Assembly (NCBI RefSeq): GCF_022347785.1
Contig: NZ_JAKRGA010000002.1
Coordinates: 124,001-188,000, forward strand
Reading direction: 5' to 3'
DNA: 64,000 nucleotides
Origin: Psychrobium sp. MM17-31
Lineage (GTDB): Bacteria > Pseudomonadota > Gammaproteobacteria > Enterobacterales > Psychrobiaceae
Shown here: positions 4,580 through 37,203 of the stretch, piece after piece
How the letters are laid out: each line of letters begins with the position of its first letter
Position numbering within the stretch: position 1 is the stretch's first letter
Made by a program: the position numbers and the translations under genes
Notes under the pieces: generated by a model
Seen by the model: the letters and a program-made list of their open reading frames with translations, nothing else
The model's database searches: none
Told to the model about the DNA's origin: nothing

Positions 4580-4766
4580 GATAATAAACAGCGACCTCGA
4601 ATGAAATTGGCGCCAGTGTAATTGAAAACCACCGTTTGGCAATCAAAACGCCATGATTTGCGTCAAATGATAGGAATTTTCTGCATTACACCTATAGCTT
4701 ATGTGGTTGTTTATCGGCGAATAAACACGGATAATATGCGCCATTAAAAATACAATGAATAGCATA

Positions 4767-10923: not shown

Positions 10924-11634
10924 ATGACTCAGCCACTATCAAAACAACAAAAAGTACAGGCGATCATCGATATTCTCGACGAGTTATATCCAGAAGTACC
11001 GATCCCTTTAGATCACACCGATGCCTACACACTTCTGGTGGCGGTATTGTTATCGGCCCAATGCACCGATGAGCGCGTTAACCAGATTACCCCGCTGTTA
11101 TTCGCTAAAGCAGATAATCCGTACGACATGGTGAAGATGACCATTGAAGAAATTCAAGAAATCATTCGCCCATGCGGTTTATCGCCAATGAAATCGAAAG
11201 GCATTTGGCACCTATCGCAAATGATTATCGAGCAACACGACGGCGAAGTGCCAGCTGATATGGCCGCGCTTGAAGCCATGCCGGGAGTTGGCCATAAAAC
11301 CGCATCTGTTGTTATGGCGCAAGCCTTTAATATTCCAGCCTTTCCAGTTGATACCCACATCCACCGTCTGATGTATCGCTGGGGTTTGTCTAACGGTAAA
11401 AGTGTTGAGCAAACCGAGCGCGACGGTAAACGCCTGTTTCCAAAAGAACGCTGGAACGACTTACACCTACAAATAATTTACTACGGCCGTGAATATTGCC
11501 CCGCCCGTGGTTTTTCGCTAGATAAGTGTATTATCACCCGCGAATATGGCCGCAAGAGCTTTATTAATGAAGTGCTTAAAGAGCAAGAGAAGAAAGCCCA
11601 AAAACAAAAAAAGCAGCAGCAAAAGAAGAAATGA
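10924..11634 (+). CDS. Endonuclease III-like DNA glycosylase without Fe-S cysteines
   Basis: HhH-GPD glycosylase fold, 236 residues. The helix-hairpin-helix MPGVGHKTASVV holds the catalytic Lys and FPVDTHIHR the catalytic Asp, as in endonuclease III, so a bifunctional glycosylase/AP-lyase activity is expected. The C-terminal four-cysteine cluster motif is absent: only two Cys remain in YCPARGFSLDKC. The tail is a Lys/Gln-rich stretch after residue 215. It overlaps the canonical nth gene by four bases (ATGA). Such cluster-less paralogues exist in other bacteria, but the tandem coupling is unusual. Substrate range unknown. Confidence 0.85.
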   Translation: MTQPLSKQQKVQAIIDILDELYPEVPIPLDHTDAYTLLVAVLLSAQCTDERVNQITPLLFAKADNPYDMVKMTIEEIQEIIRPCGLSPMKSKGIWHLSQMIIEQHDGEVPADMAALEAMPGVGHKTASVVMAQAFNIPAFPVDTHIHRLMYRWGLSNGKSVEQTERDGKRLFPKERWNDLHLQIIYYGREYCPARGFSLDKCIITREYGRKSFINEVLKEQEKKAQKQKKQQQKKK

Positions 11635-12266
11635 ATAAGTCGAAGCGCCAACAAATACTAACGATTTTGCGTGACGAAAATCCACATCCGGAAACGGAGC
11701 TGGAATTCAATTCACCATTCGAACTTTTGGTGGCCGTGACGCTATCAGCGCAATCGACTGATGTTGGTGTTAACAAAGCCACTCGCGTTCTTTTTCCAAT
11801 AGCCAACACACCACAGGCCATCGTTGATTTAGGCGTTGAAGGGCTTGCAAGCTACATCAAAACCTTGGGGTTATATAATTCCAAAGCGAAAAATGTTCAC
11901 AAAGCCTGCCAGATGCTCGTTGAGCTGCACAACGGTGAAGTACCAGAGAGTCGCGAAGCATTAGAAGCACTGCCGGGAGTGGGCCGCAAAACCGCCAATG
12001 TCGTCCTTAACATCGCTTTTGGCTGGCCAACAATTGCCGTCGATACCCACATTTTCCGCGTCGCCAATCGCACCAAATTCGCGATGGGTAAAAACGTCGA
12101 TCAAGTAGAAGAAAAACTACTAAAGGTCATTCCCGCAGAGTTTAAAGTCGACGCCCACCATTGGTTTATTCTACACGGTCGTTATATCTGCACCGCCAGA
12201 AAACCCAAATGCGGCGCCTGTGTTATTGAAGAGCTGTGTGAGTTTAAAGAAAAAACAGAGTATTAG
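11631..12266 (+). CDS. nth: Endonuclease III
   Basis: Base-excision repair enzyme that removes oxidised pyrimidines and cuts the abasic site. 211 residues, the standard length. LPGVGRKTANVV contains the hairpin and catalytic Lys; VDTHIFRV contains the catalytic Asp; the C-terminal Fe-S motif C-x6-C-x2-C-x5-C is complete (CTARKPKCGACVIEELC). Start overlaps the stop of the cluster-less paralogue. A terminator follows 18 bases after the stop. Confidence 0.97.
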   Translation: MNKSKRQQILTILRDENPHPETELEFNSPFELLVAVTLSAQSTDVGVNKATRVLFPIANTPQAIVDLGVEGLASYIKTLGLYNSKAKNVHKACQMLVELHNGEVPESREALEALPGVGRKTANVVLNIAFGWPTIAVDTHIFRVANRTKFAMGKNVDQVEEKLLKVIPAEFKVDAHHWFILHGRYICTARKPKCGACVIEELCEFKEKTEY

Positions 12267-12283
12267 TTCTCTTCAAAAAATCA

Positions 12284-12311
12284 AAAAAGGAAGGTTTACA
12301 CCTTCCTTTTT
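12284..12311 (+). terminator. Rho-independent terminator after nth
   Basis: Eleven-base stem AAAAAGGAAGG / CCTTCCTTTTT with a six-base loop and a T-run, ending the rnf-nth operon. The A-run on the left lets it also act on the convergent receptor gene that ends at 12330. Confidence 0.9.
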
Positions 12312-12329
12312 ACTTCTCCATCAAAACCC

Positions 12330-14309
12330 TTAATGACCAAACTTAAAGCGAATGCCCGCATTAACTGTGAATCCGTCATTACGAGACCAGATATCTGTCG
12401 CCCAACGACCACTTGGGGCACGTTCTAACAACAAAAGTGACTCGTCTTTAGTTTGACGTACATTGAGTAGGTTTTCCGCGTTAATGAAGTAACTCACCTT
12501 ACCAATGGTAATTTGGCCAAGCAGTCCTAAGTGCCAATAAGCATCACTTTTCTCGCGATAGGGATTACCTTCAAGGTGCTGAGTACCTGTGTAATAGGCT
12601 TCAAAGCCAACAAGATGACTCCCGTGCTCTTCCCACATTAATACTGCACCTGCAGAATGTTTCGGTGTTAAGGTAAGCGGCGCGCGGCCAATATCGTTTT
12701 GCGCTTGCTTTGTAGCGTCAGTATATAAATAACTGCCTGTTAGCTTAATGTCTCGCCAGCGATAACGCAGCAGTAATTCTGCGCCGCGAATTTCGCTCTC
12801 TCCCGCTGCGTTAATAATTCTTACCTGCTTAGCTGCCTCGCTATTAACAAGCGGATCAATCACTTCAAGCTCGGTAACATTATCAACATTAGACGCAAAC
12901 AAAGTAACGCTGGCTTCAACATTATCCATCGCGTAGCTGACATCGATAGATGCCGTCGTAGCTCGCTCCTCTTCAATGCCATCAAGCGGCGCTAAGCGTG
13001 ATAGCCCAGCGTCTTCAATATCTTCAATAAACGGCGTTGGCGCAAAGAACCCTTGGCCATAAGAGCCGCGAATTGTCCAAGTCTCTGGGCTATAAAGCAC
13101 CGACACACGTGGGCTGACCTGTGTGCCGTATTCACTATGCCAATCAGCACGGGCACTAAGTGACATAGACACATCATCGTTGGCTTGATAGTCAACTTGT
13201 GAGAATAATCCCGGCACTTGGTAGTCGTAATTAAACTCACTAAAGTCTTGCGAATCAAAACGCTCTGATTGATATGCAGCGCCCAGTAGCCATGCTATTT
13301 CGTCGCTATAACCAGAAATGCTCGACTCCAAAAGATAGCTCTCATGAGTATCGTTTTCTTCAACGACACCATAAAGATGATCGTGCTCTTGCCGCATCGC
13401 TGAGCCACGCAGGTTGAGATTAAGATCATCTGCCAGTGGCTGATCGAAAATAAAGCCACTATCGAGCCTTAACGAGTCTTGGTTTTGGGCAAACGGATTG
13501 CCATCGGCAACAGTGCCTTGTGCGGTAGTGCCTCCTTCTCGCTCTTCTTTCATTGCGCCAAAGGTTACATACAAATTAGCGCCACTGTCGCTCTCCCAAT
13601 ACAAACGCGGACGAACCGTTGCTCGTTGATATTGGGCAATATCATTCCAGCCATCACTATCGAGATCTTTATCTGCTTGATTATGTAAGCCAGCAGTTAC
13701 TGAGGCACTTGTCGACTCATTAATTGGCGAGGCAAAATAAGAAGTAACATCTTGGCCGCCTTTTGAGGTGGCATTTAATAACACCTCTCCCTCAAATTCA
13801 TCAGATGGCGTGCGAGAGATAAGTTTAATTACGCCGCCAAGTGCTGAACCGCCATAGAGTGAAGACGCCGAGCCTTTGATGATTTCAACGTTAGCTAAAT
13901 CTGTCGGCGGAATTTGCAATAAGCCAATGGATGCGGTTTGGCCGCCATATAGCGGTAAACCATCGCTCAGTAGCTGTGTATAACGACCATATAGACTTTG
14001 TAATCGAATGTTGGCACTGCCTAGCGCAGGCGAAGTATTTTGGACTCGCACGCCGCCAGTTTCAGCCACCAGCATTGAAATGTTTCCGGGTCTCATGAGC
14101 GCTTTTTCTTGCACTTCTTCGCCGTTGATAATTTCAGTGCGGGTTGCTGATTCCGTAACAATGCGACCTAGGCGCGACGCCGTCACTTGAATTTTCTCTA
14201 TCTTTTTATCTTCGTGTTTATGATGCTCGTTATGATCATCGCCACCAGCGATTGCCATTGATGGTGCAAACAACACTGCCAGTGCCACTTTAGAATATTT
14301 AGTAAGCAT
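12330..14309 (-). CDS. TonB-dependent receptor, probably metal-related
   Basis: Complete outer-membrane receptor of 659 residues: signal peptide to about AIAGG, a His-rich start of the mature protein (DDHNEHHKHEDKK, 24-36), plug domain from about 37 (IQVTASR, then ANVEIIKGSASSLYGGSALG), and a 22-strand barrel ending in Phe-Gly-His. Start is supported by GAGG nine bases upstream (GAGGTCGAAATG). The His-rich N-terminus and the Cys-rich exported protein encoded just upstream point to uptake of a metal such as zinc or copper; this is inference. The 3' end faces the nth terminator. Confidence 0.92.
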   Translation of the reverse strand: MLTKYSKVALAVLFAPSMAIAGGDDHNEHHKHEDKKIEKIQVTASRLGRIVTESATRTEIINGEEVQEKALMRPGNISMLVAETGGVRVQNTSPALGSANIRLQSLYGRYTQLLSDGLPLYGGQTASIGLLQIPPTDLANVEIIKGSASSLYGGSALGGVIKLISRTPSDEFEGEVLLNATSKGGQDVTSYFASPINESTSASVTAGLHNQADKDLDSDGWNDIAQYQRATVRPRLYWESDSGANLYVTFGAMKEEREGGTTAQGTVADGNPFAQNQDSLRLDSGFIFDQPLADDLNLNLRGSAMRQEHDHLYGVVEENDTHESYLLESSISGYSDEIAWLLGAAYQSERFDSQDFSEFNYDYQVPGLFSQVDYQANDDVSMSLSARADWHSEYGTQVSPRVSVLYSPETWTIRGSYGQGFFAPTPFIEDIEDAGLSRLAPLDGIEEERATTASIDVSYAMDNVEASVTLFASNVDNVTELEVIDPLVNSEAAKQVRIINAAGESEIRGAELLLRYRWRDIKLTGSYLYTDATKQAQNDIGRAPLTLTPKHSAGAVLMWEEHGSHLVGFEAYYTGTQHLEGNPYREKSDAYWHLGLLGQITIGKVSYFINAENLLNVRQTKDESLLLLERAPSGRWATDIWSRNDGFTVNAGIRFKFGH

Positions 14310-23331: not shown

Positions 23332-23730
23332 ATGGATATTAAAGAGGTTTCTAAACGCGCCAATTTACCCGCTTCAACACTGCGTTATTACGAAGAAAAG
23401 GGATTGATTCAATCCATTGGCCGCAGTGGCATCACACGCGTATTTGCAGAAAACATAGTAGAGCGCTTGGCTTTTATTTCACTAGGGCGCTCGGCGGGAT
23501 TATCACTTGATGAAATTAAGCTCATGCTTGCACCAAACAACATTACCATCGATCGCACATTACTACTTAACAAAGCAGATGAACTAGACGCCCAAATCAA
23601 ACAACTCAAATCAATGCGCGATGGCCTGCGCCATGCAGCACAGTGCACAGCGCCCAATCATTTTGAATGTCCTACCTTTAAACGGCTATTAACGATTGCA
23701 AATCAGCGTTGGAACAGAACAAATAGATAG
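23332..23730 (+). CDS. MerR-family transcriptional regulator
   Basis: 132 residues: winged helix-turn-helix with LPASTLRYYEEKGLI, a dimerisation helix (LDAQIKQLKSMRDGLRHA) and a short C-terminal effector part with two cysteines (AAQCTAPNHFECPTFK). Two Cys nine apart are a possible metal or redox sensor as in related MerR proteins. GGGGAG precedes the ATG by five bases. The likely target is the divergent methyltransferase promoter. Confidence 0.9.
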   Translation: MDIKEVSKRANLPASTLRYYEEKGLIQSIGRSGITRVFAENIVERLAFISLGRSAGLSLDEIKLMLAPNNITIDRTLLLNKADELDAQIKQLKSMRDGLRHAAQCTAPNHFECPTFKRLLTIANQRWNRTNR

Positions 23731-23765
23731 CACTTGAGAAACAATTGCTAGCAGCAAGCAGCTAG

Positions 23766-24989
23766 CTATTCATTTGGCCGAATTGCTTTAATATCCTGAT
23801 CTGCCGCCCAAGACAATACATCCTCGCGTTTTAATGCCGTCGCCATAAGATCCGGAAATTGATCTGGTGAACATGCAAATACCGGGCTTCCGATTGCTGC
23901 AAAATCCCCAGCCATTTGGCTATCATACGAAGGTTTACCATCATCACTAAGCGCCAACAGTGTAATCACGTTGACATCTTGCCTAATTAAGTTAGCAACC
24001 CGTGTTTTTAGTGCTTCACCGTCACCGCCTTCATAAAGATCGGTAATTAGGATCAAATGGGTCTTACTCGGCTGCTCAATTTTTCCTTCACAATAAGCCA
24101 CAGCCTGATTAATATCCGTACCACCACCAAGCTGCACACCAAATAATACGCTAACGGGATCGGCTAAATCTTCAGTTAAATCAATGACTGCAGTATCAAA
24201 ACAAACGAGCTGTGTATTTACCGCTGGAATCGATGCCATAACGGCCGCAAAGATTGAACTATAAACCACAGAAGTCGCCATAGAGCCAGATTGATCAACG
24301 CACAAAATCACATTGTCCAAATCAGCTATTCTGCGCTGCTGACGCATAAAGCCTATGAGTTTTTCGGGAATAACAGTATTTAAATCAGGCTGATAATGAC
24401 GTAGATTGGCACCAATAGTACGATGCCAATCGATGTCATTAAACCGCGGGCGAAAGGTCTTTTTAGACCTATTAATTGCACCACGAATCGACTCAGTGGT
24501 GCGTTGTTCTAGACGCTCCATTAGTTCATCAACGACTTTTTGAATAACTTGTCGCGCCGTTTCCATGGTTTTTTCTGGCATAACTGAGCGTAAACTAACA
24601 AGATCTGCCACTAAATGAACGTCTGCTTCAATTGCCGCTAAAAACTCCGGTTCCATTAGCATTTCTTTTAGCCCCAAGCGTTCAAAAGCATCCTTTTGCA
24701 CCACTTGAACTACGCTCGATGGAAAGAACTCGCGGATATCACCAAGCCATTTAGATACTTTTGGCGCAGAGCGAGAAAGGCTACCGCGTCCTTTATCAGA
24801 CGCTTCACCGCCATAAAGAGCAGTAAGTGCAGACGACAAACGTCGATCAGATGCAGATAAACTACTGCTCTCATCGCTCTCTGCCCCCAAGACTAACCGC
24901 CAGCGGCGATCTTTATCCTGCTGCGAGCTCTCATCTTGATTAATATCTTGTAATGAAGTGCCCTGTGATGAATTATCTATTGCTGCCAC
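23766..24989 (-). CDS. VWA-domain protein of the SWIM/MoxR operon (YehP-like)
   Basis: 407 residues. The C-terminal von Willebrand A domain (about 225-400) has a complete metal site: D232-x-S234-x-S236, T291 in GGGTDINQA and D317 in ITDLYEG. The N-terminal half is helical and charged. VWA proteins work with MoxR ATPases as substrate or target adaptors. GTG start at 24989 overlaps the upstream gene by 13 bases with AAAAGGAATAAGG before it. Last gene of the five-gene operon. Homology to E. coli YehP is by domain and gene order from memory. Confidence 0.88.
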   Translation of the reverse strand: MAAIDNSSQGTSLQDINQDESSQQDKDRRWRLVLGAESDESSSLSASDRRLSSALTALYGGEASDKGRGSLSRSAPKVSKWLGDIREFFPSSVVQVVQKDAFERLGLKEMLMEPEFLAAIEADVHLVADLVSLRSVMPEKTMETARQVIQKVVDELMERLEQRTTESIRGAINRSKKTFRPRFNDIDWHRTIGANLRHYQPDLNTVIPEKLIGFMRQQRRIADLDNVILCVDQSGSMATSVVYSSIFAAVMASIPAVNTQLVCFDTAVIDLTEDLADPVSVLFGVQLGGGTDINQAVAYCEGKIEQPSKTHLILITDLYEGGDGEALKTRVANLIRQDVNVITLLALSDDGKPSYDSQMAGDFAAIGSPVFACSPDQFPDLMATALKREDVLSWAADQDIKAIRPNE

Positions 24990-27268
24990 GCCTTATTCCT
25001 TTTCAATAACAGTGAAACACGAGCGAGTTGCAGTGGCCACGTCTCTAACATTGATTCATTAACCACCAACTCAGATTGACGCTGCTCTCTTCCTAACAGC
25101 ACACGATCGATGAGACGCTTTCGCTCCATGGCGTCTAGATCGGAAAAGATACGGCGAAATAGCGGTAAATTTTGAACAAAGTCATCTTCATCAATACCAA
25201 TCAGCCAATGTTCTATCGCGTTTAACAACACGTCGTCATAAAGTAACCTATCCACAGCATCGCTAAAAAAGCCATCGAAATAACGTGCAGCCTGTGCAGG
25301 TTCAATTGCTAGCGACAACATTTTCGCCAACAATATTTCTAGCTCGTCATCAGATAATCTTTGCGCTTGATAAAGCAGACGAGAACACAACCCTGAAACT
25401 TGGCGAGTACTGGCTTCAGTTTCGATGATTACCTGTAAAGTTTTCCACCATTGTTCGGCGGTGGCGTCATCCCAATCAGTCAGAAGTAATGCCTGATGCG
25501 CATCACTAATGGCGCGGCGATAATGCCAAGCCTCGTCATCGTCTAGATTACGGCAAGCATAAGGCAACGCCAAAGCGGCTTGAATCGTTAAACGTTCTAT
25601 CAATTGGACAATATGTGGCAATGAAATTTCACGCGCAGTACCGTAGCGACTAATTTCAATGAGTGGAGTGATACTTTCTAACAGCTCAAGGCAATCACTA
25701 GTATGTGCCGCGCGCTTGCTCAGCAACTCGATGCCCAAACTTGCTGCGTTATCCAGCTGCGACTCCAAACATAGGTGGACAGCATTAGCTAATTGACCGA
25801 GGTTCTTTTCCTTGCGAATGATTTCACTAATTTTATTGCTTGCCGCAAGTTCGATACTACTGCCGTAGACTAGGTTCTCCACTAGCTTTACCGAAAACTC
25901 AGGTTGCCAGCTCAACGTCCAATTTTCTCTAAAGGTTCCGCGACTCTTGCCACCACCATTGAGATTTCCCCAATCAACGCCGAGAATAACCAGACGATGT
26001 AACAATGTGGACTTGCGAAGTCCCGCATCGCTACGCAGATCTAGAGCAACCTCTCGCGGCAGTGCTTCTGGCTTTAACTTGAGCTTCTTTTGCTGACTTT
26101 GCAAATCCTCAATCAGCGGAATAAGAGGAGCGTCAGCAGGAATTTCCCCCACTGCGCTGCCGAGTAACAATTTCGCCTCAATTTGGTGCCACAAAGCCTG
26201 CTCACCAAAACACAAACAGGCGATAACGGCCTCGCGAATTTCTTCAAAACCAACAGCAGGTCTATTTCGCACAGCAGCTAATGTTTGGCACAAACGACTT
26301 GCTTCGATCACCGACGCAGTAGAGACAATATGACCAGTGGCTCTCAGTTCATGGCAAACCTGCGCTAGCCAGCGCTCAATTTTATTGACATCATTGTGAT
26401 ATTGCCACAAATGCTGATACCACATCGGTGCGTCAATCCCCGCACCGTAGCCTGAGCGCACTGATAGTCGTGCGCTGGTCCAAGGGATCCAGGTCGATTT
26501 TAATTTCTTGGCAGATAATTTATTCGGCAGAGTTTTCACTAACTCACGATCAGCTTTTAATGTGTGTTTTGCCGTTAAAGCAGGTACATGCCATGCGCCG
26601 CAAACGACAGCAATGGGACCGTCGGTAAGCTTTTTAGCTTTGTTAATTTCAAGACGCATATAGGCTTCACGAACCAAATCACGTTGCATTGATGGAATAT
26701 CACTGGCAATGCTTTGTCGTAATGTGCCCATCGCGTTTGCGACAACATCGAAAATAGCGGCATTATCATCGCTATTTTGTTCAATTAAATCATTCCACCA
26801 CGCCTCACCGTCTTGATAATCTGCAAGTTTTGCTAATTCACCGATAGGATCTAACACTACTGCGGGTGTTGCGAGATGCTCGTCTGTAGCTTCTGTCTCA
26901 GTATCAATTTCGTCCTCGCTTAATGCGCTTTCCTTCGCGGCCACTTGCACAGCTAACTGAATATTGACTGGAACATCGATAAAAGCAGCTTCAACATTAT
27001 GCTGTGCGGCGTAAAGCGTTGCTTGATACTCTGGCGAATATTGCGCAAAGGGATAAAACACACTACTATTGGCGTCATCGGTGGCATATGCTAGCAACGC
27101 CACCGGAGGTTTCATTTCTGCATGTGCCAAAAGTGACAACAACTCAGAACAATCTGTCGGCCCTTCGATTAAAATTCTCGCTGGCTGCAATGCTTCCAAT
27201 GCAGATATTAAACGTTGGCTCGATCCGGGACCGTGATGACGAATTCCAAAATAATGAATGTTGGACAT
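24977..27268 (-). CDS. DUF5682-like protein of the SWIM/MoxR operon (YehM-like)
   Basis: 763 residues, no membrane segment or signal peptide. The N-terminal 260 residues contain the conserved IRHHGPGSSQRLI, ILIEGPTDC, LLAYATD and VVCGAWHVPAL motifs, which resemble a TraB/ChaN/EreA-like enzymatic fold, though no activity is shown. The rest is helical (YGAGIDAPMWYQHLW, then Leu/Ala-rich repeats). Length and position between the MoxR and VWA genes match E. coli YehM. Ten bases after the ATPase gene. Confidence 0.8.
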   Translation of the reverse strand: MSNIHYFGIRHHGPGSSQRLISALEALQPARILIEGPTDCSELLSLLAHAEMKPPVALLAYATDDANSSVFYPFAQYSPEYQATLYAAQHNVEAAFIDVPVNIQLAVQVAAKESALSEDEIDTETEATDEHLATPAVVLDPIGELAKLADYQDGEAWWNDLIEQNSDDNAAIFDVVANAMGTLRQSIASDIPSMQRDLVREAYMRLEINKAKKLTDGPIAVVCGAWHVPALTAKHTLKADRELVKTLPNKLSAKKLKSTWIPWTSARLSVRSGYGAGIDAPMWYQHLWQYHNDVNKIERWLAQVCHELRATGHIVSTASVIEASRLCQTLAAVRNRPAVGFEEIREAVIACLCFGEQALWHQIEAKLLLGSAVGEIPADAPLIPLIEDLQSQQKKLKLKPEALPREVALDLRSDAGLRKSTLLHRLVILGVDWGNLNGGGKSRGTFRENWTLSWQPEFSVKLVENLVYGSSIELAASNKISEIIRKEKNLGQLANAVHLCLESQLDNAASLGIELLSKRAAHTSDCLELLESITPLIEISRYGTAREISLPHIVQLIERLTIQAALALPYACRNLDDDEAWHYRRAISDAHQALLLTDWDDATAEQWWKTLQVIIETEASTRQVSGLCSRLLYQAQRLSDDELEILLAKMLSLAIEPAQAARYFDGFFSDAVDRLLYDDVLLNAIEHWLIGIDEDDFVQNLPLFRRIFSDLDAMERKRLIDRVLLGREQRQSELVVNESMLETWPLQLARVSLLLKRNKAWQQ

Positions 27269-27277
27269 GATGCGCCC

Positions 27278-28357
27278 TTACAAAACTTCGTTCATTATCT
27301 TGTAATAATCAGCATATCCGGGACGTTTCTTAAGTACGGTTTCTAAATATTCTTCCAATACAGCTTTGTCTTGCACCGGATCTTTAACAATCGCTCCAAC
27401 GATATTGCTACTTAGATCTTGAGCATCTAGTGCGCCGTCGCCAAACCAATTCGCTTGACTCAAGCCACCCACCATCACGGCAATAGCTTCGGCAGTCGAT
27501 AAGTTGCCTGTTGGCGTTTTCAAAGTTACCTTACCGTCTAAAGTTTCTCCCCCGCGCAATTCTCGGAAAATGGTCACAACCTTTTCAATTTCCTGCTGAG
27601 CGTCTTTAGGCATAGGTAAGGCCAAGCTTTCACTCATTTCCTCAACGCGTTTAGCAATAATGGCAATCTCTTGCTCCATATCATCAGGCAACGGCAGCAC
27701 AACAACATTGAAACGGCGTTTGAGTGCAGCTGATAACTCATTGACGCCTTTATCGCGATTATTAGCGGTAGCGATGATGTTAAAGCCTTTCTTTGCATAA
27801 ACAGCATCATTAAGCTCGGGAATTGGCAACATTTTTTCAGATAACACAGTGATTAACGTATCTTGAACATCAGAGCCCATACGGGTTAATTCTTCTAAAC
27901 GACATAATGTTCCCGCTTCCATGGCGCGATAGAGTGGTGTTGGCACTAAAGCATCACGACTAGGACCGTTAGCGAGTAATTGCGCGTAGTTCCAACCGTA
28001 ACGAATTTGGTTTTCATCTGTCCCCGCCGTACACTGAATGACCTGTGTACTATTACCACAAATACCCGCTGCTAGGTGCTCCGAGACCCAAGATTTCGCA
28101 GTTCCAGGCACCCCCAAAAGTAATAACGCGCGATCTGTCGCCAGCGTAGCAACTGCGGTTTCAATAAGCCGACGATTACCAATGTATTTAGGGCTAATTT
28201 CAACGCCGTCTTTCGTTGTTCCGCCTAATATATAAGTGACTACAGCTTGTGGAGATAATGCCCAGTTTTCAGGTTTCTCGCCGATATCCTGTGCTTTTAA
28301 TGCATCCAATTCAGCTTGATAAATTACTTCAGCGGGTTGGCGAAGAATGTCATTCAT
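27278..28357 (-). CDS. MoxR-type AAA+ ATPase (YehL-like)
   Basis: 359 residues. Walker A is GVPGTAKS (82-89); the Walker B position reads LCRLEEL (Glu155-Glu156), lacking the usual Asp; sensor 1 is IIATANNRD and the arginine finger lies in ALKRRFNVV. MoxR ATPases remodel or activate partner proteins, usually together with a VWA protein coded nearby, here the last gene of the operon. 32 bases after the DUF5691-like gene. Confidence 0.9.
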   Translation of the reverse strand: MNDILRQPAEVIYQAELDALKAQDIGEKPENWALSPQAVVTYILGGTTKDGVEISPKYIGNRRLIETAVATLATDRALLLLGVPGTAKSWVSEHLAAGICGNSTQVIQCTAGTDENQIRYGWNYAQLLANGPSRDALVPTPLYRAMEAGTLCRLEELTRMGSDVQDTLITVLSEKMLPIPELNDAVYAKKGFNIIATANNRDKGVNELSAALKRRFNVVVLPLPDDMEQEIAIIAKRVEEMSESLALPMPKDAQQEIEKVVTIFRELRGGETLDGKVTLKTPTGNLSTAEAIAVMVGGLSQANWFGDGALDAQDLSSNIVGAIVKDPVQDKAVLEEYLETVLKKRPGYADYYKIMNEVL

Positions 28358-28389
28358 AAATAATTCCTTGTTTTGTTCACACCTGATAT

Positions 28390-29886
28390 TTACTGTAATT
28401 CAGAGAGTTTAATATTTAATTTAAGACAATCGAAAACAGGATCAACGTTTAGCATGCCTAGTTTTACCAAGCGTTCGATAATTTGTTTAGCGCAGTCACT
28501 TGAAACCAATAAACCAAGCGCGATAATTCCTCGAGTGGCGTATGACTGTTCGAGATAACTCGTTTTTTCAATTTGTTCGATAATCTGTTGTTCAAGCGTC
28601 TTCCACGCAAGTGTTTTAGCTAATACACGCCATTGAATGGCACCTATAGGCTGGTCAGTAAAAGGTAATAACTCGTCAAAACGATAAATAGCTTTGTTAT
28701 GCGACATAATTTCCGATACCAACTTCTGGCGTTCATCACTACTTAACCGAGGCAATAACAGCTCAAGTAAGTTGATAGCGTGTTGTTCTTCGTTCAAATA
28801 GTCTCTTAAACGCGTAATAACAATTTGAATAATTTCATCTGGCGCATGGCGAGCGACGTTGGTGATAAAATTGTAGTTATCGAGATAGCGATGCTGGCTA
28901 AATTGCCAGTTCTCTACCAACTCGCGTGGCGATAGTGACAGTGCTTGTGCTAAGTGAATTAAAGACACTTGCTCTAACCACTCTGAACGAAGCGCTTGTT
29001 GTTTCTTGCTCTTTAAGGGCGCAGCGACAACGTGTTTTGTTTTTTTAAACAAACCAGAAGTTTTTACAGTTAACCACGCCGCTAATTCATCCGCCAATTC
29101 ACATGCTCGCTGATCATCTGTAGGCGGTACATTCTCCCCTAAGCGCATCAGCAATTGAGTACTTAACTCGACGACCTTTTTAGAGCGATCATTGGCAAGA
29201 GAATTAAGATATTCGATATCTTGCTGTGACAACTTGATTGCTAATGTATCGATAACTTTATAACGTCGCTCTGCCGGCTCATTAGCGGCACATTGTGCAA
29301 TAATTTCACGCGCTTGTTGCGGGTTATTTCTGCGCAATGCGCGCAATAACTCTATGTGTTGAGCAGGTAAAAACTGTGACCAATTATCAGCGGTTAACGA
29401 TTGCTGTGACTGATTGACTTGCGTAACCCACGCTAACCACGGCCAATATAGTGCGGGTACATCGTCGTTTTGTTTTGGTAGCCAATCTGCTGGATGCGCA
29501 CTGATTTTGTGTTGTGCCAGTATATTCAATAGATGATTGGTTTTACTTGGTGAAAACTGTTTAGTTTGCTCAAGGCAGCGTTTAAACAGTCCTCGAAGAT
29601 CGTCAGCTAGCGTTACAAATTCGAGCTGCGGCAAAGGTGGCTTAGTAAGCAGTTCTTGAGGTTCAGACTGCGCCAGCAACCATGACCGTTGAGCGCTAGC
29701 CAAAATAAGTGCTTGGCGTCGTTGACAACTATGAGAAAGATTCTGATCCAGCTCTGGCCAACTCTTTGGCAATTGCGTATCAATTGCAGTTGTTCCCTGA
29801 CCACCAATTAACCAACGCTTATACAACTGATCAATTTGCGCGAGTTCTTGTCTTGCAGTTTCAATTAACACGAAATGGTCCCCCAC
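28390..29886 (-). CDS. DUF5691-like helical-repeat protein
   Basis: 498 residues without signal or membrane segments; almost wholly helical with HEAT-like pairs (LLRALRRNNPQQAREIIAQ, LNSLANDRSKKVVELSTQLL). Members of this family are found between SWIM and MoxR genes in many bacteria. A scaffold role is likely from the fold only. Its start overlaps the SWIM gene by 22 bases. Confidence 0.75.
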   Translation of the reverse strand: MGDHFVLIETARQELAQIDQLYKRWLIGGQGTTAIDTQLPKSWPELDQNLSHSCQRRQALILASAQRSWLLAQSEPQELLTKPPLPQLEFVTLADDLRGLFKRCLEQTKQFSPSKTNHLLNILAQHKISAHPADWLPKQNDDVPALYWPWLAWVTQVNQSQQSLTADNWSQFLPAQHIELLRALRRNNPQQAREIIAQCAANEPAERRYKVIDTLAIKLSQQDIEYLNSLANDRSKKVVELSTQLLMRLGENVPPTDDQRACELADELAAWLTVKTSGLFKKTKHVVAAPLKSKKQQALRSEWLEQVSLIHLAQALSLSPRELVENWQFSQHRYLDNYNFITNVARHAPDEIIQIVITRLRDYLNEEQHAINLLELLLPRLSSDERQKLVSEIMSHNKAIYRFDELLPFTDQPIGAIQWRVLAKTLAWKTLEQQIIEQIEKTSYLEQSYATRGIIALGLLVSSDCAKQIIERLVKLGMLNVDPVFDCLKLNIKLSELQ

Positions 29887-31256
29887 AATAGCGTATTGGC
29901 ACTCATAAGTTGCGCTTTGTAACCATCCGACAAAACAAATGCATGCGACAATTCACTCCCCAACAAGACGGAGTTAATCGATTTATTACTCAAAGCAATC
30001 GTTTGTTCAGAGACCTGATCACTCCACCAATAGTCGCCACTCTCACTCTGAGCAATACGACCAGCACCAATTAATACAGGAAAAGACTCTAGCCATGGCG
30101 AAGATGCTAAATACCGTTGAAAGGCAGCTTGATGGGTGCTTATTTGATAACTTGGAGTTTCTGATGCATGAGTTATGACTTGATACTCGCCAAGTACAGC
30201 GCGCAATGGCTGACGTGCAGGATAGAAAATCAATTCTCCTTCGATTAAACGGTCTATGCTGCTAATCATTTCTTTACGACCAGCACTAGCAGGATAAAAA
30301 TCGAGCAATAAAGCAGGCTCTTGATAGCGACCATCAACGTTTATTAACCACTTAGCGTGCGCTATCAAACCATCCTTACGGCTTTCGATATGTTCGCCGA
30401 CAGTCTGCCATATTCCAGTGATTCTTAATGCTTTTTCGTCACTAATGATTTGTTCTCTAGTTTCCGACTTCGCCACAGCACGCCTAACATCTACATCGTT
30501 ACAATCGGTAAACCACGCCTCTGATAACATAGCTAACTTGCCAAGTTCTTGATAAACCATCTCGGCTTGCACAGCGGCATCGGCAGCCATAACTTTAGCT
30601 GGTAACTCATCGACACGTGCAGCAAAGTTAGTTGCCTTAGCATCAACAAGACGCGACGCAATGCGTCGGCAACGCTCATTTACTTCCTTAATGAAGGTGG
30701 TAACACCATTGAGTAACTGATCATCTAACCACTGTTGAAACTCCACAAGTCCTTCGCTAATCGAGGTGTCTGTCTTAGCTTTGTTACTTGCAGCTCGCTT
30801 AGCCTGCGCCGCTTCTTTTTTCGCTAATTCCTCAGGAGATAATGGTTTAGCTTCTTGTGTTATCGCTCCAATATCTTTAGCTACTGTAGGTTTAGTTGCT
30901 TCTACGGAGCCAGCAGTAGGTTTACGCTTTCGCCTGCCTAACCAATCGTGCACCCATTGCGGTGGTTCCGCGTCAGCAAAACCGTGCTGTGCATCTGAAA
31001 ACTGCCACAGCAGAGCCAATACGTGTTTACAGGGAAATTTTCGTGATGGGCATGTACACTTGTAACCGTGCTCAACAACATCAGCGACAGTGTAATAGGG
31101 TTTAGAGCCAGAGCCTTGGCACTCACCCCAAATGGTATTAATTGCAGGTGCTTGTTCAAGTACTGGCCATTTTGCGGGTTTGAGTAGTTTTTTTGCGGCA
31201 TTCAAAGACGCCTGATCTGGCGCTAACTCTTGAATGGTTTCAAGCGAAATATTCAC
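29865..31256 (-). CDS. SWIM zinc-finger protein (YehQ-like), first gene of the operon
   Basis: 463 residues. The SWIM motif is C67-x-C69-x6-C76-x-H78 (CTCPSRKFPCKH), a zinc site that binds DNA or protein. A Lys/Ala-rich linker (about 115-170) leads to a C-terminal part without recognised motifs. Cytosolic. The first cistron of the five genes; 360 bases of AT-rich sequence precede it and should hold the promoter. Confidence 0.88.
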   Translation of the reverse strand: MNISLETIQELAPDQASLNAAKKLLKPAKWPVLEQAPAINTIWGECQGSGSKPYYTVADVVEHGYKCTCPSRKFPCKHVLALLWQFSDAQHGFADAEPPQWVHDWLGRRKRKPTAGSVEATKPTVAKDIGAITQEAKPLSPEELAKKEAAQAKRAASNKAKTDTSISEGLVEFQQWLDDQLLNGVTTFIKEVNERCRRIASRLVDAKATNFAARVDELPAKVMAADAAVQAEMVYQELGKLAMLSEAWFTDCNDVDVRRAVAKSETREQIISDEKALRITGIWQTVGEHIESRKDGLIAHAKWLINVDGRYQEPALLLDFYPASAGRKEMISSIDRLIEGELIFYPARQPLRAVLGEYQVITHASETPSYQISTHQAAFQRYLASSPWLESFPVLIGAGRIAQSESGDYWWSDQVSEQTIALSNKSINSVLLGSELSHAFVLSDGYKAQLMSANTLLWGTISC

Positions 31257-34267: not shown

Positions 34268-35545
34268 TCGTTGACACCCAGAAATTAGCATGGACGTTTA
34301 ACCAATTTTTTGCAATTCGTTTTGCAGCAAATTTCAATCAATTAACAATTTCATTTCAATTAAATCGGTAATAAATCGTTTTAGAAGTGTTTATTGCTAT
34401 CAGACGCCGAGAAAAGCACAAAGAAAGCCTGTAAACAACTCGATTATCTACATTTCTCAGATAGCTTGGCTAGTTTATCCGTTAGCCAACGCCCTTATAC
34501 CAACAGTGATGATGCTCATTGGCACACTGCCTTAACCGCTCTCGCGAGCCTGCGAAGTTACCGTATTGGCGTCTAAAGTGATTAACAATTTCTATCCAAT
34601 CATCACTAGCAATCCCCAAACAATCAAGTAATTTAGGCTGATGCTCTTCCACAAAACCGCGCTTATTAGGCACTATCTGTCTTGCACTCCAATCCGCCAG
34701 TTCAAAGTAATCATAGAGGGTAAAAGGGATGGCAAGCGATTGTTGCGAACCGCCAAATGGTAAAAGGTTAGCGGGTTGTTTCGGTGAGGCTTTATTGTGT
34801 TTGGAGGTGGTTCTTCGGTCTTGCTCATAACTACGGATTCTGGCTTGAATTGAGGTAAAATCACTCTCTTTAAAATCATTGGCCATACCTGCGCGAATAG
34901 GGTTTAAATCAACATACATCATGCAAGATAACAAAGCTTGTTCATCCAACAATGCCTGTGAATAATAACGACCTTCCCAGTAGCGTCCTTTGCAGTTATC
35001 TTCTTTATTAGCGGCTCGAGCTATCGACTCATTGAGGTGACGCATAAACCAACTAATGTCATAAAGCCTAAATCGCCACACGCTGACCACCTCAGCAACC
35101 TTGGCTAGACTCGCTTTGTCGTCTATCTCGCCTTTGCGATACCTATCAACGACAGGATGACCTTTATGCAGTTGATACCAACGTTCAATTACCTCATCAT
35201 CAGACCAACTTAACGCACGTTCTCGGTCTACACGCAATACTAAATGGTAATGGTTACTCATAATTGCATAGGCAGCGATATGGATAGCGAAAATCCCTGA
35301 TAACGCATGGAGCTTGTCCAACACCCATTGGCGCCTGTGGTTATAGTTCTTACCGGAGTATTTATCTTCACCACACAGAAATGCGCGACGAACACAACGA
35401 GAAATGACGTGATAGAAAGGTGTGGCGTCTAAATCAATTAGACTGTTTCTTGCCCTAGCCATAACAACCTCCTCAACAAAGAGTGATTATTAGCCTAGGA
35501 CAAATTCAATTTATTGCCAGAAACTTTTGGGTGTCTATTATTTTG
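34268..35545 (-). mobile_element. Complete Y1 (HUH) transposase element, copy 1
   Basis: About 1.28 kb between TCGTT-GACACCC (34268-34279) and GGGTGTC-TATTATTTTG (ending 35545), with inverted terminal GACACCCA / TTGGGTGTC. The left 210 bases are AT-rich and non-coding; the rest is one transposase gene. Its right end abuts a half attC site and its left end lies in the older fragment. Confidence 0.85.
34482..35462 (-). CDS. Y1 (IS200-like/REP-associated) transposase, copy 1
   Basis: 326 residues with the HUH motif in SNHYHLVLRVD and the segment MMYVDLNPIRAGMA, which holds the probable catalytic tyrosine and is typical of REP-associated tyrosine transposases. These enzymes cut and join single-stranded DNA at hairpins. 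GAGGAGG lies six bases before the ATG. About 90% identical to copy 2. Longer than the usual 150-220 residues because of a C-terminal extension (from about 215) shared by both copies. Confidence 0.9.
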   Translation of the reverse strand: MARARNSLIDLDATPFYHVISRCVRRAFLCGEDKYSGKNYNHRRQWVLDKLHALSGIFAIHIAAYAIMSNHYHLVLRVDRERALSWSDDEVIERWYQLHKGHPVVDRYRKGEIDDKASLAKVAEVVSVWRFRLYDISWFMRHLNESIARAANKEDNCKGRYWEGRYYSQALLDEQALLSCMMYVDLNPIRAGMANDFKESDFTSIQARIRSYEQDRRTTSKHNKASPKQPANLLPFGGSQQSLAIPFTLYDYFELADWSARQIVPNKRGFVEEHQPKLLDCLGIASDDWIEIVNHFRRQYGNFAGSRERLRQCANEHHHCWYKGVG

Positions 35546-35926: not shown

Positions 35927-37203
35927 GACACCCAAAAATTAGCTTGGATGTTCAACTACTTTATTTCAAGTCGTTTTGCGCTAAAATTTCAATCAACTAA
36001 TACATTGACTTCAATTAAATCACTAATAAACAACTTTAATTACGTTTTTTGCTACCAAACACTGATAAAAACACATAGCGATCCCTCAAGTTGCACGATT
36101 ATCTGCTTCTTTTTTGAGATAACTTGGATGGTTTATCTGTCAGCCAACACCCTTGTACCAACAGTGATGATGCTCATTGGCACATTGCCTTAACCGCTCT
36201 CTGGAACCTGCGAAATTACCGTATTGGCGTCTAAAGTGATTAACGATTTCTATCCAGTCATCACTAGAAATTCCTAAACTATCAAGTAATTTAGGTTGGC
36301 TATCTTCTACAAAACCACGCTTATTGGGTACTATCTGTCTCGCGCTCCAGTCAGCCAATTCAAAGTAATCATATAACGTAAACGGTATGGCAAGCGGTTG
36401 TTTTGAACTGCCAAATGGCAAGAGTTTAGTGGGCTGTTTTGGTAATGTTTTACTCTCTTTTGAAATCTTTTTTCGTTCTTGCTCGTAACTTCGTATTCGG
36501 GCTTGAATTGAAGTAAATTCGCTCTCTTTTAAGTTCTTAGCCATTCCTGCACGAATAGGGTTTAAATCAACATACATCATGCACGATAACAGTGCTTGCT
36601 CGTCCAATAATGCTTGAGAATAATAGCGTCCTTCCCAGTATCGTCCTTTACAGTTATCTTCTTTATTAGCCGCTCTAGCTATCGACTCATTAAGGTGACG
36701 CATAAACCAGCTAATGTCATAAAGCCTCAATCGCCACATTGAGACAACTTCAGCAACCTTGGCTAGGCTCACTTTATCATCTATTTCACCTTTGCGATAC
36801 CTATCAACAACAGGGTGACCTTTGTGAAGTTGATACCAACGTTCAATTACCACATCGTCAGACCAACTTAATGCACGCTCTCGGTCAACACGCAATACTA
36901 AATGATAGTGGTTGCTCATAATCGCATAGGCAGCGATATCAATAGCAAAAGCCTCCGCTAACGCGTGTAGTTTATCCAGAACCCATTGGCGCCTGTGGTT
37001 ATAGTTCTTACCGGAATATTTATCTTCGCCACACAGAAATGCACGACGAACACAACGAGAAATGACGTGATAGAAAGGTGTGGCGTCTAAATCAATTAGA
37101 CTGTTTCTTGCCCTAGCCATAACAACCTCCTCAACAAAGAGTGATTATTAGCCTAGGACAAAATCAATTTATTGCCAGAAACTTTTGGGTGTCTCTTATT
37201 TTG
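35922..37203 (-). mobile_element. Complete Y1 (HUH) transposase element, copy 2
   Basis: Same ends as copy 1 (TCGTT-GACACCC at 35922-35933 and GGGTGTC-TCTTATTTTG to 37203). The coding part is very similar to copy 1, while the left non-coding 200 bases have diverged more. The right end abuts a half attC and the left end cuts a cassette gene. Confidence 0.85.
36140..37120 (-). CDS. Y1 (IS200-like/REP-associated) transposase, copy 2
   Basis: 326 residues, the same start MARARNSLIDLDATPFYHVI, HUH motif SNHYHLVLRVD and YVDLNPIRAG segment as copy 1; differences are scattered (for example LAEAFAIDIAAY against LSGIFAIHIAAY). Intact reading frame and Shine-Dalgarno GAGGAGG suggest that it is functional. 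Confidence 0.9.
   Translation of the reverse strand: MARARNSLIDLDATPFYHVISRCVRRAFLCGEDKYSGKNYNHRRQWVLDKLHALAEAFAIDIAAYAIMSNHYHLVLRVDRERALSWSDDVVIERWYQLHKGHPVVDRYRKGEIDDKVSLAKVAEVVSMWRLRLYDISWFMRHLNESIARAANKEDNCKGRYWEGRYYSQALLDEQALLSCMMYVDLNPIRAGMAKNLKESEFTSIQARIRSYEQERKKISKESKTLPKQPTKLLPFGSSKQPLAIPFTLYDYFELADWSARQIVPNKRGFVEDSQPKLLDSLGISSDDWIEIVNHFRRQYGNFAGSRERLRQCANEHHHCWYKGVG

Follow-up and report, generated by a model that had tools for sequence, protein, structure and literature searches.

What is the function of a closely spaced five-gene operon in Psychrobium sp. MM17-31, and has the same gene set been met before in other bacteria? The operon occupies positions 23766-31256, on the minus strand, of the 64,000-nucleotide stretch of DNA analysed here (contig NZ_JAKRGA010000002.1, positions 124,001 to 188,000; hereafter the window), and is transcribed in the order SWIM, DUF5691, MoxR, DUF5682, VWA, with spacings of -22, +32, +9 and -13 bases. 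Its first gene (29865..31256, 463 aa, GTG start) encodes a ddrT-like SWIM zinc finger protein with the finger C67-x-C69-x6-C76-x-H78 (Pfam SWIM, 3.1e-6), which is followed by a ddrU-like DUF5691 protein (28390..29886, 498 aa, GTG start; DUF5691, 1.3e-16), a ddrV-like, YehL-related MoxR AAA+ ATPase (27278..28357, 359 aa; AAA_5, 3.6e-36), a ddrW-like DUF5682 protein (24977..27268, 763 aa; DUF5682, 7.4e-209), and a ddrX-like VWA protein of the CoxE type (23766..24989, 407 aa, GTG start; VWA_CoxE, 4.9e-49). The original prediction, made from the letters of the window, had named these five families on one strand, and all open reading frames (ORFs) were found where it had put them, with Pfam in agreement. 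Direct naming by Pfam, PADLOC or NCBIfam assigned no function to the set: no NCBIfam model scored over cut-off for any of the five proteins, and PADLOC returned weak ATPase matches only, with no system model that fits.

The operon had been put forward as an undescribed system, which it is not: a description was published in 2009, and the name ddrTUVWX followed in 2017. A putative five-gene operon starting from Deide_18730 was described in Deinococcus deserti, with the MoxR-like Deide_18710 and the VWA protein Deide_18690 suggested as a possible chaperone system (PMC2669436). According to PMC5552922, Deide_18730 is a SWIM zinc finger protein in the class with more than tenfold radiation induction under IrrE/DdrO, the motif also precedes the homologous genes of D. 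gobiensis, D. maricopensis, and D. peraridilitoris, and the name ddrTUVWX was proposed for the operon, with its function given as unknown. For D. taeanensis TS293, an additional 78-aa gene was reported between ddrV and ddrW (PMC9510100). The D. taeanensis TS293 locus read by us (L056; loci are referred to by such numbers below) holds the five families in the same order together with a 78-aa ORF at the published spot, and thus T, U, V, W, and X are SWIM, DUF5691, MoxR, DUF5682, and VWA, respectively. Window and D. taeanensis proteins are 62% (MoxR), 48% (VWA), 35% (DUF5682), and 32% (SWIM, E 2e-42) identical, and the DUF5691 proteins align with 29% identity over 107 aa (E 2e-5). Judged from these D. 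taeanensis sequences and the published D. deserti gene order, the window operon almost certainly corresponds to ddrTUVWX: the families, their order, and the state of a five-gene operon of unknown function are the same, while the Deinococcus operon has a radiation/desiccation response motif (RDRM) upstream, is radiation-induced through IrrE/DdrO in D. deserti, and in D. taeanensis includes the 78-aa gene, whereas the window operon has no RDRM/LexA-type match.

The five genes are also inherited as one unit. In an even draw of 398 Pseudomonadota genomes, DUF5682 was over cut-off in 14 and DUF5691 in 7, the latter being the same 7 genomes in which DUF5682 matched below E 1e-190, a few kilobases apart; two further genomes gave sub-cut-off DUF5691 matches with no listed DUF5682 match. 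Among 38 loci whose genes near DUF5682 were read, 20 have DUF5691; the set was gathered via DUF5682, is therefore biased towards presence, and is silent on how often the other families stand alone; all 20 keep the five families in order and on one strand, an arrangement far from chance. Moreover, the MoxR, DUF5682, and VWA genes are inherited together as a core: their trees, built from 31 loci, have 16-17 of 28 splits in common, a number that never exceeded 3 when the labels were permuted 300 times, and in each of the three trees the 19 loci with DUF5691 cluster as one group. The neighbourhood comparison and the congruent trees thus bear out the expectation that the set is conserved as a unit. 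Short duplicate loci (L001-L008, L016-L027, L029, L030, L034) had been removed from the 38, and loci with broken, fused, or oddly called genes (L047, L048, L053, L059) from the trees. MoxR was found in 37 of the 38 loci and VWA in 35, with L015 lacking both in 22 kb and L028 and L050 ending early; L058 does contain DUF5682, which is missing from its printed map due to an overlapping ORF. Beyond Pseudomonadota, coverage consisted of named plasmid or contig records, from which Deinococcota, Bacteroidota, and Actinomycetota loci were read and Fusobacterium appeared as one match row; the control genome of Deinobacterium chartae contains both DUF5682 and DUF5691.

Three architectures can be told apart in these loci. 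Type A is that of the window, while in type B a DUF4132 gene stands upstream and is followed by MoxR, DUF5682, VWA, and a SWIM protein of another sort; of four DUF4132 proteins scanned, WGR was also found in one and HEAT repeats in one. In the third, L035, the order is SWIM, a 682-aa protein to which Pfam assigns no family, MoxR, DUF5682, VWA, and we rejected the 682-aa protein as a DUF5691 member because it is not recognisable as such. SWIM and DUF5691 occur as a single ORF in Hymenobacter (L057), and DUF5682 and VWA in a Streptomyces plasmid (L059). Apparent DUF5682 fusions in L050 and L028 are not claimed as such; an upstream-extended start is likelier, and the overlapping MoxR ORFs are in another frame. 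Individual loci deserve mention on their own account. A Capnocytophaga DUF5682 gene (L015, 10001-12292) has no MoxR, VWA, SWIM, or DUF5691 gene in the fetched 22 kb and is the one orphan seen, and on a Methylosinus plasmid (L053) the VWA gene is split into three ORFs (11226-12394) near insertion sequence (IS) elements. MoxR, DUF5682, and VWA are also encoded on a record labelled 'Bacteriophage sp.' (L060, MT835988.1), which pairs with L035 in the DUF5682 tree; this unverified faecal scaffold is more likely a bacterial contig than a phage.

Kinship with yehL/M/P/Q of Escherichia coli, likewise anticipated in the original prediction, holds for the core trio, which is adjacent in both genomes and whose proteins are 41% (MoxR/YehL, whole length), 22% (DUF5682), and 32% (VWA) identical. 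It does not extend to the remaining members, as the window SWIM protein is alignable with YehQ at the finger only, with otherwise no significant similarity, and DUF5691 has no match in E. coli, one of 14 control genomes. The E. coli genes yehI-yehL-yehM-yehP-yehQ are of type B, in the order MoxR-DUF5682-VWA-SWIM with DUF4132 (in some loci with WGR) upstream, and the gene yehF upstream of them is annotated as PF05406, the WGR family. YehL is one of seven MoxR subfamilies (PMC3893208), and by kinship and by its DUF5682 and VWA neighbours the window MoxR belongs with it. In contrast to the scattered window type, yehLMPQ is near-universal in E. coli, the segment being present in 5301 of 5426 genomes and across at least 80% of its length in 5162. 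No published biochemical role for YehLMPQ, and no published function for either operon, was found among the open-licence papers listed by the literature searches, in line with the earlier remark that YehLMPQ still lacks a clear one. A yehI-to-mlrA segment was also observed between IS26 copies on a conjugative resistance plasmid of E. coli (L054, NZ_CP103756.1), beside CTX-M-15 and aac(6')-Ib-cr, and is probably a captured piece of chromosome.

The hallmarks of a MoxR-VWA pair are present in the window, namely Walker A/B, sensor, and arginine finger on the one side and the metal ion-dependent adhesion site (MIDAS) DxSxS..T..D on the other, so that the full metal site read earlier from the letters stands. 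Walker A GxPGTAKS, EE, sensor N, and the RRF pattern recur in 36 of 37 MoxR proteins, and a PDB sequence search matched the MoxR protein to midasin, Lon, and NorQ. The MIDAS of the VWA protein is made up of D232-x-S234-x-S236, T291, and D317, of which all but the nearly invariant T291 are unchanged throughout the 18 sequences aligned; by locus, DxSxS is kept in 34 of 35 and the complete pattern in 30 of 35. NorQ-NorD, CbbQ-CbbO, and RavA-ViaA likewise combine a MoxR AAA+ ring with a VWA partner, but they act on a known enzyme, and none is known to be accompanied by SWIM, DUF5691, and DUF5682. In NorQD, activation of the target depends on the VWA MIDAS whereas MoxR binding does not, and ATP has to be hydrolysed (PMC9976466). 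By analogy with this behaviour, the kept VWA and MoxR residues suggest that a MoxR ring with a VWA adaptor would act with DUF5682 and might be aimed by the SWIM protein. The CxC..CxH finger is found in 21 of 21 SWIM proteins retrieved with the type A profile, and a PDB sequence search with the SWIM protein gave nothing meaningful. DUF5691 diverges fast, the window protein being 21-42% identical to six relatives, and is probably helical.

New in this work is the resemblance of the DUF5682 N-terminus (26390..27268, minus strand, a stretch taken as the putative hydrolase domain from an alignment and a structure model) to the TraB/TIKI/erythromycin-esterase (Ere) hydrolases; the likeness to TraB, TIKI, EreA, and ChaN had been noted ahead of the structure work. 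Residues R10, H11, E35, R200, E201, and H227 do not vary among 25 diverse DUF5682 members, including those of E. coli and Capnocytophaga, and a combined residue pattern, composed after viewing this alignment, matched 38 of 38 DUF5682 members and none of the 473 further ORFs with 250 aa or more in the same loci. Eight aligned TraB-family proteins have G53, H56, E82, R254-N255, G277, and H280 as invariant positions. The H-to-E spacing is 24 in DUF5682 versus 26 in TraB, and the R-to-H spacing mostly 27 (range 24-30, 37 measured) versus 26, so that a strand His, a strand Glu, and a last-strand His stand at similar distances. A 2His/2Glu motif was described for the superfamily, with Bcr135 (3B55) as a member of the Ere family (PMC6254334). 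H11, E35, E201, and H227 are invariant in DUF5682, yet an R stands for the E of E-x-x-H, giving R-H in place of E-x-x-H or G-T-x-H, and DUF5682 further differs in its long helical C-terminus and in the lack of an established sequence-profile link. Residues 1-293, modelled with AlphaFold 2 (AF2) on the basis of 8 sequences, gave a predicted template modelling score (pTM) of 0.65 and a mean predicted local distance difference test score (pLDDT) of 62.7. Searched with Foldseek, this model had a TraB family protein as best match among viral protein models (E 1.6e-3, probability 1.00), and chains of Bcr135 at ranks 2 and 4 against the PDB (E 0.2 and 0.4). Pfam TraB itself matched weakly (E 0.03) in 1 of 25 members, and a PDB sequence search with DUF5682 gave nothing meaningful. 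The AF2 model of full-length DUF5682 was set aside, being of low confidence and returning generic helical-repeat matches in Foldseek. A weak AAA_lid_2 match (best E 0.028, 2 of 25 members) covers residues 315-352 of DUF5682, just behind the putative hydrolase domain, and a resemblance of this part to an AAA+ lid is possible. DUF5682 is thus predicted to consist of an N-terminal TraB/TIKI/Ere-like domain (about residues 1-290) and a helical C-terminal part; in our judgement a TIKI-type fold of the N-terminus is probable, while the chances that the protein is an active enzyme seem evenly balanced.

We propose, with about equal weight for and against, that the operon encodes a stress-linked MoxR-VWA remodelling machine that works with DUF5682, its dedicated partner, as a TIKI-type hydrolase. 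SWIM and WGR are nucleic-acid or damage-related modules, and the SWIM protein, together with the DUF5691 protein, would bring the complex to its target, for which a structure of nucleic acid or nucleoprotein that forms under stress is the probable candidate. Gripping an acidic patch of this target via the MIDAS metal would fall to the VWA protein, and the MoxR ring would pull using ATP and either pass the opened target to the DUF5682 enzyme or re-set DUF5682 itself.

Several observations weigh against this proposal, beginning with its hydrolase part. The structure models, from which the parallel-sheet fold common to the superfamily would have to be recognised, are weak, with a mean pLDDT of 61 for the full-length protein and 63 for the N-domain, and no Foldseek match reached E 0.001 in either library. 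Ranks 1, 3, and 5 in the PDB were Tetrahymena complex IV chains (7w5z_E, 8b6h_DQ, 8bqs_DQ), which TraB and ChaN profiles did not explain. No TIKI link could be established by comparing sequence profiles with one another: the hhalign scores for TraB (27.9) and Ere (15.9) fell within those of shuffled profiles (block shuffles up to 28.8 and one column shuffle at 132 for TraB; up to 26.1 for Ere), and that for ChaN (30.5) exceeded its 60 shuffles (27.1) yet stayed under an unrelated-control VWA profile (37.0). Furthermore, no conserved neighbour points to a target, as no Pfam family was found in more than five of 143 flanking proteins from 20 loci.

The stress part is weighed down by the upstream regions. 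With TTATGT-N5-ACATAA, which we take to be the RDRM consensus, D. taeanensis L056 has an RDRM-like site with at most 3 mismatches at 4741-4757, 36 bases ahead of the SWIM start (1 in 20 kb versus 0.02 expected). Between -350 and +60 of the window operon, seven RDRM/LexA-type patterns gave zero matches, and no RDRM was found there within 3 mismatches either. The pattern CTGT-N8-ACAG (at most 1 mismatch) is absent before all 20 operons scanned; these were 19 type A loci (not L058) plus L035, a set that also served for the flank count. RDRM-like matches with 2-3 half-site mismatches before L010, L011, L035, L040, and L057 were given no weight, no chance expectation having been computed for them or for the few matches, with 1-2 mismatches, of other short LexA-type patterns in L033, L013, L042, L052, L053, L056, and L041. 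A longer SOS box had five weak matches in the window and zero before the operon. Damage control is demonstrated for Deinococcus only; the window operon is of the same operon family as ddrTUVWX, with membership in the same regulon unsupported by the scanned motifs, and a damage role in Psychrobium would follow by analogy with Deinococcus.

Could the pair instead serve as a maturation chaperone that inserts metal into, or opens the site of, one metalloenzyme, as NorQD, CbbQO, and CoxDE do, with DUF5682 as client or scaffold? The CoxE type of the VWA protein and the sites retained in the MoxR-VWA pair would suit such a task, known pairs are described as working in this way (PMC9976466, PMC3893208), and a metal might be bound by the invariant His and Glu residues in DUF5682. 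However, the flank count given above reveals no client enzyme conserved by the operon, and the DUF5682-VWA fusion hints at a permanent partner and not at a transient client, and we consider this explanation somewhat unlikely. Alternatively, the TIKI-like head of DUF5682 might be inactive and the protein a helical scaffold, in which case the complex would only remodel protein complexes, e.g., on damaged DNA. Residues of about 480-670 are indeed predicted to be helical in the full-length model, with pLDDT mostly 80-90, and MoxR-VWA pairs are known as chaperones (PMC3893208, PMC9976466), but invariance of the putative catalytic residues in 25 of 25 aligned members would be unusual for a dead enzyme, and we hold a purely non-catalytic assembly to be unlikely.

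The genomic setting bears on a conflict or defence role, which the original prediction had raised. None of the 8 congeners has DUF5682, and 7 of 58 relatives have it, one of these being the genome of the window itself; the congeners' copies of the window flanking genes (S9 peptidase; sucA-D) stand without the operon in the stretches fetched; thus, the operon is accessory here. There are 36 plasmid records with DUF5682, some of them chromosome-sized, and the Iodobacter copy (L055) adjoins a type I restriction system. A defence-island neighbourhood was not seen: the 143 flanking proteins (of 146, those of at least 1000 aa being excluded) matched 42 PADLOC families at E <=1e-10, fewer than the 78 matched by 143 of 144 control proteins from 18 regions in nine genomes carrying the system, both figures being model counts inflated by redundant models. 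Two degenerate patterns run on IMG/VR viral contigs led to no confirmed DUF5682. The MoxR-vWA ternary conflict systems also join MoxR and vWA with extra partners, but their VMAP, iSTAND, FtsH, or beta-propeller third component was not found by Pfam scan of the five proteins, bpMoxR scoring under cut-off. The patchy distribution, the plasmid copies, the restriction neighbour in Iodobacter, and the existence of the ternary systems (PMC7159879) would be in keeping with a similar role against phages or in conflict. The tests of such a role found no support for it, and against it stand the merely weak PADLOC matches, the poorer flanks, the missing component, the presence of the related yehLMPQ in nearly all E. 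coli genomes, and the placing of the Deinococcus operon in a radiation regulon (PMC5552922); it is in our opinion very unlikely.

The surroundings of the operon were examined as well. A MerR regulator gene lies convergently downstream at 23332-23730, and MerR domains were detected in 2 of the 143 flanking proteins, which places this gene outside the operon set. A possible two-way terminator between the VWA and MerR genes (23747..23766, either strand) is weak; the region holds 9 terminator-like stems against 8.7 in shuffles, i.e., not in excess. Rfam gave nothing at gathering score in window 20000-42000. Upstream, two ORFs for repetitive extragenic palindromic (REP)-associated/IS200-like tyrosine transposases, 91% identical (34482-35462 and 36140-37120, both minus strand), are located in a low-GC stretch at 31-41 kb with an HNH endonuclease gene, and a 29-codon remnant of the same transposase gene was found by eye at 32302-32213 (minus strand). 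These copies and the remnant point to mobile elements having been active beside the operon.

Returning to the remodelling machine that we propose, a bolder version of it would see ddrTUVWX and yehLMPQ as two branches of one old ATP-driven protease whose build would be new: a MoxR ring with its VWA adaptor would deliver proteins to the TIKI/TraB-fold peptidase DUF5682, exchangeable nucleic-acid-type modules (SWIM and DUF5691 versus SWIM and WGR/DUF4132) would do the aiming, and proteins on damaged DNA would be cleared or edited. We offer this as a speculation that is quite unlikely to hold in full. In either version, the predicted catalytic residues H11, E35, and H227 make the question of DUF5682 testable by single point mutants. 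A radiation-induced operon of Deinococcus and a near-universal operon of E. coli have one three-protein core in common, and findings made in E. coli K-12 could therefore transfer to the damage-response operon, and back.

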